A stretch of 64,000 bases of DNA from Rhizobium sp. CC-YZS058 (GTDB lineage Bacteria > Pseudomonadota > Alphaproteobacteria > Rhizobiales > Rhizobiaceae), in contig NZ_JAYESJ010000001.1 in assembly GCF_034720595.1 (NCBI RefSeq), positions 622,501 to 686,500 of the forward strand, given 5' to 3'. Position numbers and translations under genes: made by a program. A model generated the notes under the pieces. It saw only the letters and a list, made by a program, of their open reading frames with translations, searched no databases and had not been told where the DNA came from. Positions within the stretch are counted from its first letter, which is position 1. Each line of letters opens with the position of its first letter. Below, piece after piece: positions 18,280-37,385 of this stretch.

Positions 18280-19014
18280 ATGGCCAAGAAGACCACTGCA
18301 TCCCGCGCGCCCGCCGCCGAGAAGGACGTGACCGCCGTCCAAGGCGTGGCGTCGGCCGACGCAGGTTCCACTCCTCCCGGAACCGCGTCTCTCCCCTCCG
18401 GTGGGAACGGGCCGGAGGGGAGCATCCTTGAAGGCGTCGTCCTTCCCCCCGATACTGCCCATACCCCCGAGAGCGAGAGCGGCGATGCCGACGTGCCGGA
18501 ATTGTCCGGCGCGGAAAGTCCGAATGGTGACGACACGGGAACTGCTCCTGTCACAGCACCGACCTCCGAGGTGCCGGCATCAACCTCGGAGACCGCCGAC
18601 GCGCTCGACGTGCGAAGCCTCAAGCATGTGCTCGAGGTGACCGGGTGCGCTGATCTCGATGATCTCATCGACATGGCGAACGCCGGGCAGTCGGCTCATC
18701 TGGCTCTGGCCAAGCTGATCGGCTCCGGTGATCCGGACGCTGCTCTTTTCGCCGTGCTCGAACCTGCCGAAGTGATTGAGCAGCTTTTCGAGATCAAGGG
18801 CCGGTTCCAGCAAACCCTAAATACCCTGAGTGCTGCCGCGGAGCCGGATAACTCCGGCAAGGGTAAGCGTCGCTTCATCGTCTGCGAACGGGTCAGCTTG
18901 AACGGTGTGATGGCTGAGATCGGCAAGACGCTCGATCTCACTGAAGATGAGCATGTCGAACTGCTCGCGGCGGGCGCCATTGCGTCCACCTGGGAGAAGG
19001 GCTTCACCGTCTGA
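18280..19014 (+). CDS. Phage structural-region protein with long disordered N-terminus
   Basis: The 244-residue protein starts at ATG 18280 behind GAAGGA. Residues 1-105 are low-complexity (Ala, Pro, Ser, Thr, Glu). A folded part follows with LDDLIDMANAGQSAHLALAKLIGSG and a C-terminal RRFIVCERVSLNGVMAEIGKTLDLTEDEHVELLAAGAI, resembling small Mu-like proteins between capsid and gp36. It overlaps the gp36 start by one base. The function is not known. Confidence 0.78.
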   Translation: MAKKTTASRAPAAEKDVTAVQGVASADAGSTPPGTASLPSGGNGPEGSILEGVVLPPDTAHTPESESGDADVPELSGAESPNGDDTGTAPVTAPTSEVPASTSETADALDVRSLKHVLEVTGCADLDDLIDMANAGQSAHLALAKLIGSGDPDAALFAVLEPAEVIEQLFEIKGRFQQTLNTLSAAAEPDNSGKGKRRFIVCERVSLNGVMAEIGKTLDLTEDEHVELLAAGAIASTWEKGFTV

Positions 19015-21833: not shown

Positions 21834-24800
21834 TGGCGCCTGCCTACCGCATCGCGATCGGCGTCAGCATCGACGCCAGCCAGGCGAAAGCCGGCAGCAC
21901 CGAAACGCGCTCCGCCGTTGCCTCAATCAAGAAAGAGGCGGAAGCCACCAAGCCAGCCCTAGACGCCTTGGCCACTTCGATCGACAAGGCTGACAAGGCC
22001 GGCGGCGCCGGCGTTGCGCGCAAGGGTATCGACGAGATCGGCGAGGCGGCCGACCGAACCGAGACCAAACTTCAGCGGTTGATCAACCGATCGGTCGGGC
22101 TCCATACCGGTGCGGCAAACGAGAACGTCCGGCAGTGGACGGGCGCACTGGCGGCTGAAGGGCTGGCCGTCGACAATCTGCGGGGAAAATACGATCCGGC
22201 CTTCGCCGCCATCTCCCGCTACAAGCAGGCCGTCCTCGAAATGCGCATGGCGCATGCCCAGGGGGAGCTGTCGTCGAACAAGATGGCGCAGGCGATGAGC
22301 CGTGAACGGCAGGCAACGCTGGCGAGCCTCGCGGCCATCAAGGGCCGCAACCAGGCGATGGGCGGCGGCGGGCTGCGTCCGGACCAGAAGTCGAACCTCT
22401 ACATGCAGGGCGTCGATACGGTACAGAGCTTGGCCCTTGGCATGCCGCCGATTCAGGTCCTTCTTCAGCAGGGGCCGCAGATCGCTCAGGTCTATGGAAG
22501 CATCGGCGGAGCCGCGCGCGCTGCACTCGGCGTCCTGACGCCGCTCAATCTCGCGATCGGCGGCACGGTTGCGGTTGTCGCTGGCGCCGGCATGGCGCTG
22601 AGCTCCTACCTCGAGTCGATAAAGGAAGTCGAAACGGCTGCGGCCGGCCTCGGCCGGACGACGGCTGGCACGGCGGAAGCCATGGAGCTGGCGGCGACAC
22701 GCGGTGCAGCCGCAGCCGGGATCTCGGTTTCGTCAGCGCGGTCTATGGAGGCGCAATTCCTTCGCACCGGGCGGATTGCCTCCGGCAATTTCGAGCAGCT
22801 CATCGGCATCAGCAAGAACTTCGCCGCCACGTTTGGCATCTCGGCCGAAGAAGCAGGCGATCAGCTCGCGCAGATGTTCGCCGATCCGGCCAAGGCTGCC
22901 GACGCGCTCTATCGTCAATATGGCCTGATCGACGGCGCAACAGCCGAATATGCGCGCCGGCTCGCTGCACAGAACCAGCTCGGGGCGGCGCAAAAGGTGC
23001 TCCTCGAAGCTCTCCCCAGCCGCCTGGCTGATGCGAGCAGGGCCACAACGGCACTCGGACGCGCTTGGAACACGGTCGCCACTGCGGCAAGCGATGCCTT
23101 CGATTACATCGGAAAGGCGACTGACCGGGCTATCTCGGGTCCGACCGCCGCTCAAGCGCTCGCTGAGGAAGCGGCCAATAACCGCACGCTTCGCAATGCT
23201 CAGGAAAGGTCGAAGGGTGGCTTCCTCAGTCGTCTCGGCGTTCCAAACCTGTTCTCCGATGACCTTGCTGAGAGCGATGCGAAGCTCAGCGACATGATGG
23301 AAACGCAGCGTCGGCGCGAGGCGCTCGAAGCGGAGCGCGCCAAGCGTGAGGGCAACCTCCGTCAGAGCGCCATGTCACTCGATATTGCGCAACAGTCTCC
23401 CGCAACCTCCTACGCCCGTTCACGTCGCCAGCTGGAAGACGAGATCAAGGGCATCACCGCCGGTATGAACGGCGCGGACGGGCGCTCCGCGGATCAGAAC
23501 AGCGATATTGCCACCGCTCTCGATGCAAAGACCCGTGCGCTGCAGACGATGATCCCTGCCCAAGAGCGTGCCAACCAGCTGGCGGCGCTCGAAACGCAAA
23601 TCTCGACCGAGCGCAACCCGATCGCGCGGGCGGATCTTGAAGCCCGACGGCGGCGCGTCGAGCTCGCCGGCGAGGAGATCACATCGGCGCAGGCCGAGGC
23701 GCAGATTACTGCGGCGCGCAATCAGGCACTCCAACAGTTCATGTCGACCGCACAAGCGCAGTCGGCTCAAATTGCAGACGAGGTGACGATCCGCCGGCAG
23801 CTCAACGCCGAAGTCGCTGCCGGCACCATAACCGCGGCCGAGGCCGAAGCGCGGCTGCGCACCGAAATTCAGCTCCGTCCCTTGGCGACCGCCGCGGCCG
23901 CCGCGCAGGGCGATGAGCAGCGACGACTGACGGCCGTCCTGGAAGAAGCGCGTGCCGCGCAGGCCGCTATGGAAACGGAAACCCGACGCTCCGGCGCAAT
24001 CGAGGTGGCCCGCGGCCAGGCCGACACAATCGAGAAGCTGAAGCTCGAAACCTTTCTCGTCGGCGCCAGCACGGCCGAGCGCGAAAAGGCGCTCGCCCTC
24101 CTCGAGACGGAGCAGATGATCCGCGCCCGCGGCTTCGGTTCGCTTTCGGCCGAGGCCGAGGCGATCCGGCGGAACGCACGGGCGATCGCTGAGAGCACCG
24201 AAGAGCTGCATCGTCACGAGGCTGCCTGGCAGACCGTTCAGTCGGCCGGCTCGCAGGCGATCGACAACATCATCGGCAACCTGACGAAAGGCGACTTTAA
24301 GGGCGCTTTGAACGGGCTTCTGGGCGACATCTCGTCATTCTTCAGCGAGCTCGCCGGCAACTCGATCAAGAACAGCCTATTCAAGACCGACCTGCCGACG
24401 ATCGGCACGATCTTCGAAACCTTGTCAGGCCGCGGCAGAAGCGCGGCAGCCGCTCCAGCCGCTGCCAATCAGGTCGCCGCCACTGCCGCGGCGGCAATCC
24501 CCTCGCCAGTCGCCGTTCCGGCGGCGGTCATGTCCACGTCGTCGGCCGTGGATCTCGCCGGTGGGCTTCTCGGCTTCAACGAGACCGCGCAGCGCGGCAA
24601 CATCAACAGCTTCCTCAAGGCCGGCGGCGTCAATATCGATGCGGCGCAGACCGCGTGGTGCGCCGCCTTCGTAAACTCCTCGCTCGAGCAGATCGGCGTC
24701 AAGGGATCGGGCGGCCTGACCGCGAACAGCTTCCAGAGCTGGGGCAAGGGCGTGGATGTGTCCCAGGTCCTGCGCGGCGACGTGCTGGTCGAGTCGCGCG

Positions 24801-32191: not shown

Positions 32192-33823
32192 ATGGGGAAG
32201 ATCACCAAAGCCTACCGAGCCTCTGGAGCCATCGGCCATCGCCGTCTCGTCAAATTCACCGCTACCGATGACGAGGTCGCCCTTGCCACCAGCCCAGCCG
32301 ACGTAATCGCCGGCGTTAGCGATTGCCCTGGCGGAGTGTTGAACAAGGGGCGCGTCGACATCGTGCTTGAAGGGATAGCCCAGGTCGAAGCGGGTGGGCC
32401 TATCACGCCGGGCGCGGCGTTCACGGCCGACGTCAACGGACGCGCCGTGGCGGACATGGCCACCGGCAAGCACTACGTCGGTGGCCGGTCGATTTACAAC
32501 ATGGCGGCTGGCGACCAACTCGAAGCGATCATCATGCCCGCCCTCGGGCAGGGCGATGGGGGCGGCTCGCTCGCCAAGCTGCGGGCGGCCTCTACCGCCG
32601 CGAAGGGCAACAATCCGCAGGAGCTTCCGGATTCGACGCTCGGTGCAGTCGTCACCTACTCCAACGTCTCCGATGCCAGCCTGCAGCCCGCTATTCAGAT
32701 CGCCGGTAATCCGCTCATCTACAAAACGAGCGGCAAGTTCTTCCAGAACAATACCAGCAACTTCGCATATGTAGCGCACACGAGCATCGCTCCTTCGACG
32801 GGCGGCTCAGTGAAATCGCAGCTCACATCGGCGGGAAACCCTGCAACAACGCCGCCGGCCCCTACCACCGGCTTCGATCAAGGCAAGAACTGGAACTTCC
32901 GCTTTAAGGCAACCGGCCTCCAGACAATCGAGTATGACCACGCCAATGATGCAACCAACCAGCCGATCCGCATCATCATCGACGGGCAGTACGTCAACCG
33001 CGACGGCCAGGCGTTTAACGGAGTTTCTACCCGCTATATGAAGATCGCCGTGCCGGCAGGAACACACGAGGTCGAGCTTGAGCTCCAGCACGCTAACCGC
33101 GCCGGCGGTCTGCGGTTAAACGCGGGAGCGCAGCTCGTTGAACCCACGCGTCGTCCCAAGGCCGTCGCGACTGGAACGAGCTTTGAAGAGGCTCTTCTCA
33201 TGGGCCTATACACCGCTGGAACGTTCACTAAGGATGCTGCCGGCGTCGCGCGCTATGCACCTTGGGACGGCTTGTTCCAAGTCTTCTGCCGCCTGAACGG
33301 ATACGACTGGCGCAACTCGGCCGAAGGTGGGACTGGCTATAGCAACACGGCGGGTACCAAGTCGAAGATTTTGGATCAGATGGAATACTGGATCGATGAT
33401 GATCTGTATGACCTCATCTTTTTCGGCGGGCCGTACAACGATAAGGGGCTCAACGTAGCGCAGATGCGAGCAGACGCCCGCGCCGCTTGGGTGAAGGCTC
33501 GGACGCGCCAGCCAGGCGCAACGATCGTAGTTTGCGGCACCTGCGGCGGCGCAAGTGTGGCGAATGACACGAGCAACACGATCACGTCAGAGGCGGCGAT
33601 CAAGGCGGAGTTCGACGCTTGGAAGGCCGAGACCGGCGAGACGAATGCTTTCTTCCTGCCGATCTCGTCAAACTATGCAACGGCGCTGATCAAGGATACG
33701 ACCTATCAAGACTGGATTTCGACCGACACCACGCACCCGTATCGAGGAGATTCAACCCACGGTGCCGTTGGTATCGGCTACTTTTTGAACGCAGCTTGGC
33801 GGCCGCAGATCGGGGTATCATAA
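32192..33823 (+). CDS. Decoration-domain/SGNH hydrolase fusion, virion surface protein
   Basis: The 543-residue protein is chimeric. Residues 1-120 repeat the capsid decoration protein of 16841-17212 with over half of the positions identical (SGAIGHRRLVKFTA; GGPITPGAAFTAD). Residues ~190-310 are beta-rich. Residues ~325-540 resemble an SGNH/GDSL esterase: Ser in ATGTSFEEA (block I, GTS rather than GDS), Gly in EGGTGYSN, Asn in GGPYND and His in STDTTHPYRGDSTHG. It could remove acyl groups from capsule or lipopolysaccharide. It is the last gene before the cargo block. Confidence 0.82.
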   Translation: MGKITKAYRASGAIGHRRLVKFTATDDEVALATSPADVIAGVSDCPGGVLNKGRVDIVLEGIAQVEAGGPITPGAAFTADVNGRAVADMATGKHYVGGRSIYNMAAGDQLEAIIMPALGQGDGGGSLAKLRAASTAAKGNNPQELPDSTLGAVVTYSNVSDASLQPAIQIAGNPLIYKTSGKFFQNNTSNFAYVAHTSIAPSTGGSVKSQLTSAGNPATTPPAPTTGFDQGKNWNFRFKATGLQTIEYDHANDATNQPIRIIIDGQYVNRDGQAFNGVSTRYMKIAVPAGTHEVELELQHANRAGGLRLNAGAQLVEPTRRPKAVATGTSFEEALLMGLYTAGTFTKDAAGVARYAPWDGLFQVFCRLNGYDWRNSAEGGTGYSNTAGTKSKILDQMEYWIDDDLYDLIFFGGPYNDKGLNVAQMRADARAAWVKARTRQPGATIVVCGTCGGASVANDTSNTITSEAAIKAEFDAWKAETGETNAFFLPISSNYATALIKDTTYQDWISTDTTHPYRGDSTHGAVGIGYFLNAAWRPQIGVS

Positions 33824-33877: not shown

Positions 33878-34621
33878 TTATGGTTCTAACGGGAAAAGCT
33901 GACCGAGGGGGTCACGCTTTTCTGAACTGCTATCTTCGTTGGCCCAAAAGCGCTCTTCCGAGTATGCGCCCCGATAGAAATCCGCTGGATCGAACGGGCA
34001 CCGCTCCATCAATTTATTGAAGTGTGGGTCAGTCCTGTTCAACACCAGCAAGCGTTCCATCAACTCGCTCATGCGCTCGCCACATGCCGCTTGGACAATC
34101 GGGCCCACATGCTCGAGAAGCAGGTAGATGTCCTGAACGAGCTGAGCGAGATAGTTTGCCCTAATCAGTACAATCGATAACGCGGCACCGGCCTCCACGA
34201 CCTTAAGGACCGCTCGCTCACTCAAAAAAGCTTGGACGAGAGCATCGTCCGAGCCATCGTCGTAATGCGCCATAACCTTGTGGCGGAGCTGAATAACCCT
34301 CTGGTGTTTTGCTAGCAGTTCTCGCGACATGCCCTTGGTGCCATCTATGCTGCGTCGTGAACCGTTGACAGCGAAGGCTCTGCAGTAGGTCGTGACCGTC
34401 AAGGTCATCAACGCGAGGCCAAATCGCTCACGGTCTTGGCTGACATTCGACTGGTCGAGAATTGTGAGTGTGTCGAGTGTTTTTGCGACTTCCTTGAGAT
34501 CCTCTCGGATTGAGAACGCACCCGCAAAGCGCTTGATGCTCTCCTTTAAAGGTCGGTACTCTTTCCCCGAAGGCAGTTCTTCCAGTAGCGAAGTCAAGTC
34601 GTAGGCTCGTCTCATCTGCAT
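33878..34621 (-). CDS. HEPN-like protein in the cargo region
   Basis: The 247-residue helical protein faces left, opposite to the phage genes. It carries a HEPN-type RNase motif, R113-x5-H119 in QLRHKVMAHYDD, preceded by a segment (LALMTLTVTTYCRAFAVNGS) typical of this fold. HEPN proteins are often RNA-cutting effectors in toxin-antitoxin, Abi and CRISPR systems. The C-terminus (FYRGAYSEERFWANEDSSSEKRD) is hydrophilic. It starts 47 bp from the divergent HEPN-like gene at 34669. ATG 34615 is a possible alternative start with a better spaced GGGG. Family assignment is by motif only. Confidence 0.7.
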   Translation of the reverse strand: MQMRRAYDLTSLLEELPSGKEYRPLKESIKRFAGAFSIREDLKEVAKTLDTLTILDQSNVSQDRERFGLALMTLTVTTYCRAFAVNGSRRSIDGTKGMSRELLAKHQRVIQLRHKVMAHYDDGSDDALVQAFLSERAVLKVVEAGAALSIVLIRANYLAQLVQDIYLLLEHVGPIVQAACGERMSELMERLLVLNRTDPHFNKLMERCPFDPADFYRGAYSEERFWANEDSSSEKRDPLGQLFPLEP

Positions 34622-34668
34622 CCCCTAGCCGCATTGCGAGAATCAACAAGTCGCTGTGATTCTTACCA

Positions 34669-35196
34669 ATGGTGGAGCATAGCCTCAGAAACAGCTCGTC
34701 GCTGGTACCAAGATCGGGTCGACTTTCCGACAAAGACCTGCTTGGATCTATGGCACGACGGGGGCAGCTTGTGGCAGATCCTTCAACGGTAGAAGAGTGG
34801 CTTTCGGTTGCGGCGCGACACGAACGCGCAGCAGCGTTGCTAATCGTGGACAAGAAGGCTGCCGCGGAAGGCTGGTGGCACTGTGGCATGGCGGCTGAAG
34901 CTGCTCTAAAGGCCTACATCCTCTGGAGCCAACGCCCCAACGATTGGGACGCCTATGCGACCGCAAACGGTCTAAAAACCCATGATTTGCGAAAGCTCAT
35001 TTCTCACGCGGGCATCAATCTCACAGCTGCTAATCCCATAGCGGCCTCGTGGCACATGATGGTATCGTGGGACCATCGCCAACGTTATGATCCTCAAAGG
35101 ATGCCAAGGCTAGTCGCCAAATCAATGTACGAAGCAACGTTCGGAACGCGCGGAACAGTGAGATGGATACTATCGAAATTAACGCCGAGCGCTTAG
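34669..35196 (+). CDS. HEPN-like protein, first gene of rightward cargo operon
   Basis: The 175-residue helical protein looks like a small HEPN domain: WLSVAARHERAAALLIVDKKAAAEGWWHCGMAAEAALKAYILWSQ, then KTHDLRKLISHAG, the A..E.ALKA...HDL pattern of HEPN proteins that accompany nucleotidyltransferases. A canonical Rx4-6H is not obvious, so it may be a non-catalytic partner. ATG 34669 or 34750 could be the start; neither has a strong ribosome site. Its end overlaps the next gene by 34 bases, so the two are coupled. Confidence 0.68.
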   Translation: MVEHSLRNSSSLVPRSGRLSDKDLLGSMARRGQLVADPSTVEEWLSVAARHERAAALLIVDKKAAAEGWWHCGMAAEAALKAYILWSQRPNDWDAYATANGLKTHDLRKLISHAGINLTAANPIAASWHMMVSWDHRQRYDPQRMPRLVAKSMYEATFGTRGTVRWILSKLTPSA

Positions 35197-35672
35197 CCGC
35201 TGGGGCACGTTACAAAACCGCGCTCGAGAGTCTCGGCCTTAAGCCGGCTGGACTGTTATGGGCCTATGATCCGGCAGATAAAATGTTTCTGCTCGTCCTG
35301 ATCACACCGGTGGTCGATTTTGTCGGCCCACTGGCGCTGTCTGAAAAACTCTTCACCGCTTATAGAGCGACTGCCACTCCACCGGAGATCGATCCTTTCG
35401 TGGTTCGCCTTCACAGTCCAAAGCAGGCGTTTGCACAGGCAGTCGAACAACACTTACAAACGCGGATACGCGTGCGCGATCTTGATGAAGAGACGGGTAT
35501 CTTCGGCCCTCAGTATTTAGCTCAGGAAAAAGGTACAGTTACGTTTGGCGCCGATGGCTTAGAGTTTCGCCCTGAGTGGGTATATGTATTCAGGCACTCA
35601 AAGCGCGACACCCTGGATCTCTCCCTGCAGTGGAGGCGTTTTAGCGGTAACGTTGATCAGCTCGCGGCCTGA
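35163..35672 (+). CDS. Unknown cargo protein coupled to HEPN-like gene
   Basis: The 169-residue alpha/beta protein has no motif that is recognised. The start region (GARYKTALESLGLKPAGLLWAYDP) and the LVLITPVVDFVGPLALSEKLFTAYRA segment suggest a compact fold. The long overlap with the HEPN-like gene suggests that the two products are made together, possibly as toxin and neutraliser or as a complex; this is inference. DNA here is visibly more AT-rich than the phage structural genes. Confidence 0.65.
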   Translation: MDTIEINAERLAAGARYKTALESLGLKPAGLLWAYDPADKMFLLVLITPVVDFVGPLALSEKLFTAYRATATPPEIDPFVVRLHSPKQAFAQAVEQHLQTRIRVRDLDEETGIFGPQYLAQEKGTVTFGADGLEFRPEWVYVFRHSKRDTLDLSLQWRRFSGNVDQLAA

Positions 35673-35776
35673 GCCCGCGCTCCATCGTTGGCAAAAACGC
35701 GGCCGAATTCCAGGACCTGTGGACGGTATCAAACTCAGAGCTGGTTAGCGCGGCTATTTTCTATTTGGAGAAGCGA

Positions 35777-36793
35777 ATGGACGACCGTTTCGAAAGAGTT
35801 TGCAAAGCTGCGGGTAAAAAGGTGGTAAACGCCGAGTATCTAAATGACGATGATCGTTTACAGTTGGAGCGTACGCTTCAACAGTTCGAAGCTTTTGCCA
35901 AGTCGTATATCGACCTCGCCCTTCCAGGCCATCACATCGCGATTGGGTTTTATGATTCTCTGCAAGTGAATGCTTTCGCAACCACTTGTGATGGTCAGGA
36001 TGCGATTGGGATTAGCTGGGGAGGGCTGCAGAAGCTGCGCTCTGAATTCGTCCGGGCAATAGACTATCGAGATCAGTTTGCGTGGCTGCCCTCAGGCAAG
36101 GAACTCGAAGCTGTTGATTGGCTGTTCGACTGCGCCAAGTATTTTATTTTCATACATGAGTTGGGCCACATTTGGCATGGTCATACAAGCCTGCTTCAAA
36201 CCGGTAGAGTGCCAGCGTTCTGGTTCGAAACTGGACCCCTGAAGGGACGTCCGCTCAGCAAGATTGATCGCCAAACGATGGAGATGGACGCCGACGGCTT
36301 TGCCGCAGACAACCTTTTCGATTTCGGGCTCGAATATAGGCCATTTCCCGGCATTAATTCCCAATGGGAACAAACCCATGGAACCGGCGCTACACGACTA
36401 TTGATGATAGCCATGAGTCTCCATTTCACATTTAGGATTTTTAATAAACCAATTGATTTTGATCCTCAGGAACAACAGGTTCATCCGTCTCCACCGCTTC
36501 GCCAAAGGATGATCGCAGGGTCGTTAATTGCTGCAGCGCTCAGGAGGAATGCCGCCTCTGAAGATGATGCCATGTATATTATCTTGAGAGGCATCTCAGA
36601 AGCAGAGTGGCTGTACGCCACGATAAACGGAATTTCTCCTGCCACGGAGGCAATCACCGCTGCATGGGGAAACGAAGGACATTTATATCAACGCAAGTTG
36701 CTCCGGCGCTGGCGCGTCCTCAGGCCACAGTTGGATGCGTTGAAGCGCAGCGGGGAGCTCCCTGCCATCCAAGACATCCCAGAGGACGACTGA
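35777..36793 (+). CDS. HExxH zinc metallopeptidase-like cargo protein
   Basis: The 338-residue protein starts at ATG 35777 behind GGAG. It holds a zinc-peptidase motif H127-E-L-G-H131 in FIFIHELGHIWHGH and a downstream E169/D173 in TMEMDADGFAAD that could give the third ligand. No signal peptide is seen, so it should act in the cytoplasm. Layout and size recall cytosolic exclusion proteases such as Lit (peptidase U49), but membership is not shown. Near residue 225 the DNA is very AT-rich, a sign of separate origin. It is the last gene before the right-end repeats. Confidence 0.78.
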   Translation: MDDRFERVCKAAGKKVVNAEYLNDDDRLQLERTLQQFEAFAKSYIDLALPGHHIAIGFYDSLQVNAFATTCDGQDAIGISWGGLQKLRSEFVRAIDYRDQFAWLPSGKELEAVDWLFDCAKYFIFIHELGHIWHGHTSLLQTGRVPAFWFETGPLKGRPLSKIDRQTMEMDADGFAADNLFDFGLEYRPFPGINSQWEQTHGTGATRLLMIAMSLHFTFRIFNKPIDFDPQEQQVHPSPPLRQRMIAGSLIAAALRRNAASEDDAMYIILRGISEAEWLYATINGISPATEAITAAWGNEGHLYQRKLLRRWRVLRPQLDALKRSGELPAIQDIPEDD

Positions 36794-36990
36794 CGACATC
36801 TAGGCACGCTTGCACGACGCTTCACTAGTTTGCGGACGTAAACGGATCAGCCTGACATTGTTAAACTGGTTAGGGAGTGGAGCTGAAGTTTAGGCCACCT
36901 CACGCTCGGTCGGGCTTGATGATCCATGGCAGAACGAGAACATGTCAGTTGGGAAGGTCGTCAACATTCACTGGCGGCCGACGAGCACCT

Positions 36991-37245
36991 TTTGACAAGG
37001 CGACTGGAAAAATAGAAAATTTCGATTCGCGAGGTCGATTCCGGAAACTCGCGTCCGGCTACACTGCTATGTGTGGCGTCTTTGACAAGCAGTCTGCAAA
37101 ACCAAGTTACTGCAGATCCTTGTGTCAAATCTGCGAAAAATCGCGACCGGCTACATCCTGACACAGGCTTTTTGACAAACGTTCTGGAAATCTAGATTTT
37201 TCCGATTTCTCTTGTCAAAATTCCGGAAAACCGCGTCCGGCTACA
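36991..37245 (+). repeat. Three 75-bp repeat units at 90-bp period, probable transposase sites of the right end
   Basis: Units begin TTTGACAA at 36991, 37081 and 37171, exactly 90 bp apart, and end CCGGCTACA at 37063, 37155 and 37245. Each unit contains two related sites close to TTGNCAAANNTTCYGGAAA about 40 bp apart (best seen at 37172-37190 and 37212-37229), so six sites in all. MuA-type transposases bind several such sites at each prophage end. The prophage end is probably CA at 37245 or 37247. The preceding 36794-36990 holds no recognisable gene. Confidence 0.72.
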
Positions 37246-37308
37246 CAAAGATAAAGCCGAAAAATTCAGTCAGCAACTATCGATTAATCGGCTGTCTATT
37301 GGAAAATT

Positions 37309-37385
37309 TGGTAGCGGGAGAGGGACTTGAACCCCCGACACGCGGATTATGATTCCGCTGCTCTAACCACCTGAGCTACCCCGCC
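37309..37385 (-). tRNA. tRNA-Met (anticodon CAU)
   Basis: The minus strand folds as a 77-nt tRNA with encoded CCA: acceptor GGCGGGG, D-arm with AGCTCAGGTGGTTAGAGC, anticodon stem GCGGA/TCCGC around the loop ATCATAA (CAU), and T-arm with GGTTCAAGTC. An elongator tRNA-Met is most likely; a lysidine-modified tRNA-Ile2 also has CAU in DNA. The gene is complete although the prophage ends about 60 bp from its 3' end. Confidence 0.93.

Follow-up and report, generated by a model that had tools for sequence, protein, structure and literature searches.

The known systems nearest to the genes considered here include HEPN/minimal nucleotidyltransferase (MNT) pairs and a prophage-encoded zinc protease. 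Class II HEPN/MNT pairs are defined, in the available part of PMC7641770, by a PF05168-type HEPN protein with a conserved tyrosine and no RX4H motif. In the Lit/Gol system, the cleavage of EF-Tu by Lit (Peptidase_U49), a protease of the cryptic prophage e14, is triggered by a capsid peptide, as described in the accessible portion of PMC3014915. Here we compare with these systems a block of four genes, G1 to G4, at positions 33878 to 36793 of a 64,000-nucleotide (nt) stretch of the genome of Rhizobium sp. CC-YZS058 (the window), where they lie close to the right end of a Mu-like prophage. A sequence-only reading had placed four open reading frames (ORFs) there, and all four were found, G1 leftward and G2 to G4 rightward. 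On balance, we favour the view that the block is accessory cargo of the prophage, made up of three foreign-looking cassettes, each independent of the others, whose most likely role is to protect the lysogen from rival phages.

G2 (34669..35196, plus strand) is followed by its constant partner, G3 (35163..35672, plus strand). With G3 as the query, the pair turned up on a Rhizobium plasmid and two virus contigs. Queries with G2 or one of its relatives recovered it from a Lichenicola plasmid, an Acinetobacter plasmid and eleven virus contigs, including two that G3 had already revealed. A G3-like frame stood directly after G2 in 15/15 distinct loci (the window, 11 virus contigs and 3 plasmids). 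Three of these (L031, L075 and L077) are closely related, and the count leaves out L069 and L071 (repeats of L036 and L037), CP140831 (a second R. ruizarguesonis record, with the hits of NZ_CP140842) and P0012 (which has no context). The G3 partner was recognised by profile only in L076 (E 3.6e-8) and L091 (E 1.9e-8), and that of L032 is 21–25% identical to G3. The overlap of the two genes, given as 34 bp in the sequence-only reading, is indeed 34 nt in the window (35163..35196, plus strand). It has this length in 7/15 loci and one of 4 to 64 nt in another 7, and L072 has a 2-nt gap; these lengths depend on the chosen starts, that of G3 being uncertain in L072 and L074. The relative frame of the two genes is identical in all 15 loci. 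As judged by reading of the translations at 8 virus loci, the pair neighbours repressor-like genes in L068 and L078, tail or holin-like genes in L070, L075 and L076, and an integrase-like gene in L073, and it is placed after tail genes in L075 and L076. Since its neighbours differ, G2–G3 is a mobile unit carried by temperate phages and plasmids, and its invariable pairing in such surroundings argues for a function in phage exclusion.

The module extends to Gammaproteobacteria: a distant pair lies on an Acinetobacter johnsonii plasmid (L091, 3902–4701), annotated as a HEPN domain-containing protein and a hypothetical protein, near a BrnT/BrnA toxin–antitoxin pair. Closer to the window, G3 was found in no other genome of the order (1/297, its own) or of the class (1/289, its own). 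A literature search under the name PDC-M28, or for PF05168 together with phage and defense, returned no paper describing a G2–G3 module, with preprints and most subscription papers outside the search. G2–G3 is a conserved module for which we found no description, and it differs from the HEPN/MNT classes as they are presented in the available parts of PMC2701414, PMC7641770 and PMC3710099.

The structure model of G2 has a HEPN helical fold, in agreement with the HEPN-like nature proposed earlier. A conserved RX4-6H motif, however, proved to be absent from G2. The Pfam profile PF05168 did not hit the window protein, its best score among the relatives being 21.1 bits (L031) against a gathering score of 22, with the others lower or without a hit. 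In contrast to the Class I (HepT/MntA) systems, the family has no conserved RX4HXY motif among the 12 members scanned. An arginine stands five residues before the invariant H78 in 8 of the 12, and the window protein lacks it. Y113 is invariant in 14/14 alignment rows. As in Class II, the HEPN protein has no RX4H, although a tyrosine and a histidine are invariant in it. The small, mobile, two-gene format and the PF05168-kind fold are further features shared with Class II. Additionally, models of the PADLOC candidate PDC-M28A matched G2 and 3/3 relatives scanned, which, together with the HEPN fold, supports a role in exclusion; G3, in contrast, had no PADLOC hit, and among five of its relatives only one match was seen (DrmMI, E 0.013), probably by chance. 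Sequence searches of solved structures with G2 and G3 gave nothing convincing.

Unlike the partner in Class II, G3 is not recognisable as MNT by sequence. The GSX10DXD-type motif (G[SGT]x6-14[DE]x[DE]) was present at the expected strand pair in 0/15 aligned members, and the pattern occurs elsewhere in only two of them (P0016 and L073). The G3 model had no match in a viral fold library at E <= 0.001. It is possible that G3 is a catalytically dead relative of the MNT antitoxin, with a non-catalytic form of the minimal-nucleotidyltransferase fold.

These features bear on whether G2–G3 is a plain toxin–antitoxin addiction module that stabilises the prophage and has no part in defence. Its two small, mostly overlapping genes, its mobile and patchy distribution and its presence on plasmids, once beside BrnT/BrnA, would all fit, and pairs with a PF05168 HEPN protein are those termed Class II HEPN/MNT in the part of PMC7641770 available. 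However, the HEPN gene comes first in 15/15 loci, the reverse of known dyads, in which MNT is almost always first according to the accessible text of PMC3710099, and the partner lacks the nucleotidyltransferase-type motif throughout the alignment. We therefore consider the addiction module rather unlikely. Tentatively, and with less than even confidence, we suggest that G2–G3 represents an undescribed class of HEPN modules borne by phages and plasmids, in which an MNT-type antitoxin minus its catalytic centre serves purely as a binding lid, or as a phage sensor, for an effector HEPN protein that is no RNase, the whole being a superinfection-exclusion cassette of prophages that is sometimes accompanied by a Lit-like protease. 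If so, such a mobile relative, with a partner apparently incapable of nucleotide transfer, would allow binding to be told apart from AMPylation, and would make the way in which non-RNase HEPN effectors act directly testable.

G4 (35765..36793, plus strand) had been read as an HExxH metallopeptidase, and the family alignment agrees: HExxHxxxxH is present in 18/18 members, and E-x-DAD-x-x-A/S and H/Y-P-x4-R in 17/18, the last row being missed by the pattern. In the window protein these motifs are HELGHIWHGH, EMDADGFA and HPSPPLR. G4 resembles Lit in two ways: both are zinc protease genes of a prophage, and the order of HExxHxxxxH, E-x-x-A-D and HPxxxxR is shared. An hhalign comparison of the G4 family with Lit plus one PF10463 member spanned HExxH, ExxAD and HPxxxxR (E 2.3e-4 for this single comparison), but its probability was only 44%, and with Lit alone 12%. 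The NCBIfam Lit model scored far under its cut-off (13 vs 274 bits). Four of 11 G4-family proteins (P0001, P0003, P0007 and P0009) carry a precomputed PF10463.16 label, whereas local scans of the family with PF10463.15 gave no hit. As PF10463 matched 0/14 control genomes and, among 398 genomes of the phylum, 1 over the cut-off and 3 at E <= 0.01, its silence in the local scans shows little. Pfam M48 (PF01435) reached 16.6 bits on G4, below the gathering score of 20.3, which was passed by one of nine family proteins scanned (P0003, 20.7). The best PHROG match was phrog_87, a metallo-protease (E 0.0024), and a sequence search of solved structures found only an HtpX homologue (E 0.035). On these sequence comparisons, we call G4 Lit/M48-like rather than a member of the Lit family.

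G4 relatives were found at 22 genome loci and on 6 virus contigs, three pairs of which look like one locus each, and in 5/295 genomes of the order, its own included; a single-sequence scan of viral contigs with G4 found none. This spread and the profile alignment with Lit are consistent with an exclusion function. The Lit-like family offers several prophage proteases, which may differ in their targets. Several of these loci have features of their own. Two different G4-like peptidase genes lie in tandem in L026 (7971–10235) and L014 (7872–10419). In two distant loci, L002 (8989–9186) and L008 (8951–9133), the G4-like gene overlaps at its end with an ORF of 60–65 amino acids (aa) that looks similar in both; this ORF is possibly a partner of that gene, and none was seen in the window. 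A gene named by reading as a ligD-like DNA ligase, or its remnant, adjoins G4 relatives in L002 (9213–10307), L024 (700–1809) and L031 (10040–10145), and this neighbourhood may be a site often used by prophages in Rhizobium. CapH/CapP consists of a peptidase beside a helix-turn-helix (HTH) repressor. An assignment of the block to it was rejected, as G4 had only a weak capP match (E 0.0014) and no HTH family exceeded its cut-off among G1–G3.

The leftward gene, G1 (33878..34621, minus strand), contains R113-HKVMA-H119, the R113-x5-H119 motif noted earlier. Both residues are kept in 5/5 sequences (that of the window and four relatives with 24–29% identity), with a sixth, L090, outside the alignment. 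G1 matched nothing in Pfam, NCBIfam, PADLOC or PHROG under E 0.05, the best HTH match being TetR_C_22 (E 0.075), and we regard G1 as a candidate stand-alone HEPN RNase. Its relatives are borne by plasmids of Rhizobium, Agrobacterium and Sphingobium, among differing neighbours. One has a Tn3 transposase and a Fic protein nearby, and another, from a Rhizobium plasmid, adjoins a restriction endonuclease, an association that points towards exclusion. Scans of viral contigs with the single G1 sequence and with its alignment found no relative, and among 289 genomes searched G1 was found in its own only (1/289).

A putative RNase, a coupled partner and a protease had been proposed to act as one system, a claim that was not supported, as the units mostly occur apart and the RNase motif is missing from the very HEPN gene that is coupled to a partner. 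G2–G3 stood without G4 in 13/15 loci, several of which are fragments. G4 stood without G1–G3 in all 28 loci fetched with it, some having short flanks and three appearing to be repeats from another collection. No relative of G2–G4 was seen near the G1 relatives L033–L035 and L079. G1 occurred in 1/23 records with G2–G3 or G4, at genome level (L090, in the genome of L006). The only second meeting of G2–G3 and a G4 relative was on R. ruizarguesonis pRlX2, 1.6 kb apart. Given the rarity of both families in the order, it is unlikely that random placement brought them together there, and in the window G4 lies downstream of G3 in the same orientation, with 104 nt between the G3 stop and the ATG at 35777, as if G2–G3 sensed infection and G4, perhaps with G1, were the effector. 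On the other hand, the two units on pRlX2 are convergent, they meet in just 2 of the 15 pair loci, and a joint status as prophage-end cargo would account for the meeting. One multi-gene system thus appears improbable. Because G2–G3 and G4 both collect in accessory regions and part in nearly all loci, we read the block as three independent cassettes.

The prophage itself is Mu-like, with the gene order transposase (phrog_310), DNA transposition protein (phrog_296), terminase, portal, minor head protein, tape measure and tail fibre. As proposed earlier, the block lies between the last tail-region gene (32192..33823, plus strand) and the right-end repeats (36990..37245; three copies with 90–92 bp spacing). 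The right end was taken as 37245, because homology with L063, a related prophage in a genome of the same genus, stops there; the left end and a target duplication were looked for and not found. The suggestion that this slot holds variable cargo was borne out by the related prophages L063 and L064 (two in a related genome; portal 75% identical), which carry at the same place a D12-class N6-adenine DNA methyltransferase (80.9 and 79.2 bits; cut-off 22) and no match to G1–G4 (E 1e-5). L065, which is related more distantly, has an integrase-like gene, by reading, in its right part; its right end was not located, and it is uninformative on the slot.

The block is, as had been noted, more AT-rich than the phage genes, with a GC content of 0.532 compared with 0.641 over 10547–33823. 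Only 10/611 sliding windows of its size were as AT-rich, and all 10 overlapped it. The four genes have 51–56% GC and 53–63% GC at third codon positions, compared with 73–82% at these positions in five phage genes measured. The variable slot and the lowest GC of the window both argue for accessory cargo. In Mu, the mom operon occupies such a slot, downstream of the tail genes at the right end, and the methyltransferases of the two relatives would fit counter-defence cargo comparable to mom, shielding the infecting phage from host restriction. We find this very improbable here, as no mom or com relative and no methyltransferase, acetyltransferase or other DNA-modification family was recognised among G1–G4, and relatives of G2–G3 and G4 occur at several positions of other phages. 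Accessory genes are not always placed at the right end, since those regions lie mainly in the left arm in Pseudomonas Mu-like phages, according to the part of PMC4378225 available. A search for MuA of the window phage in 21 genomes or records with G1–G4 relatives was empty; as such emptiness shows nothing by itself, the type of these carriers is known by reading only.

Prophage cargo as a phenomenon is ordinary. Of the defence or exclusion block proposed earlier, the exclusion flavour was retained, through the PDC-M28A matches of G2 and the Lit-like features of G4, and the single system was not. In protecting the lysogen, G2–G3 would act as a two-gene toxin or sensor unit in which G3 holds the HEPN protein G2. 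Infection would release G2, which might block growth by RNA or nucleotide binding and not through the classical RNase motif. G4 may be a latent, presumably cytosolic zinc protease that responds to a phage component by making a Lit-like cut in a host factor, and G1 could cleave RNA through R113/H119.

As judged by reading, the genes probably start at ATG 34615 (G1), ATG 34750 (G2) and, behind GGAG, ATG 35777 (G4, 338 aa). The residue numbers given above count from ATG 34621 for G1 and from ATG 34750 for G2. Promoter-like sites (4, compared with 2.3, sd 1.4) and terminator-like sites (5, compared with 3.6, sd 2.0) were not clearly over shuffles. The 543-aa product of the ORF at 32192–33823 matches the head family phrog_673 at residues 4–195 and continues, by reading, with an apparent SGNH-type esterase part, an odd fusion. 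A tRNA-Arg called by ARAGORN inside the tape measure gene (24397–24471, minus strand) is probably false. At the right end (window 37245–37385; L063 reverse complement 18626–18810), the diverged related prophage ends at nearly the same place, with the same tRNA-Met gene adjacent, which would reflect either an old common insertion or a target preference unusual for a transposable phage.
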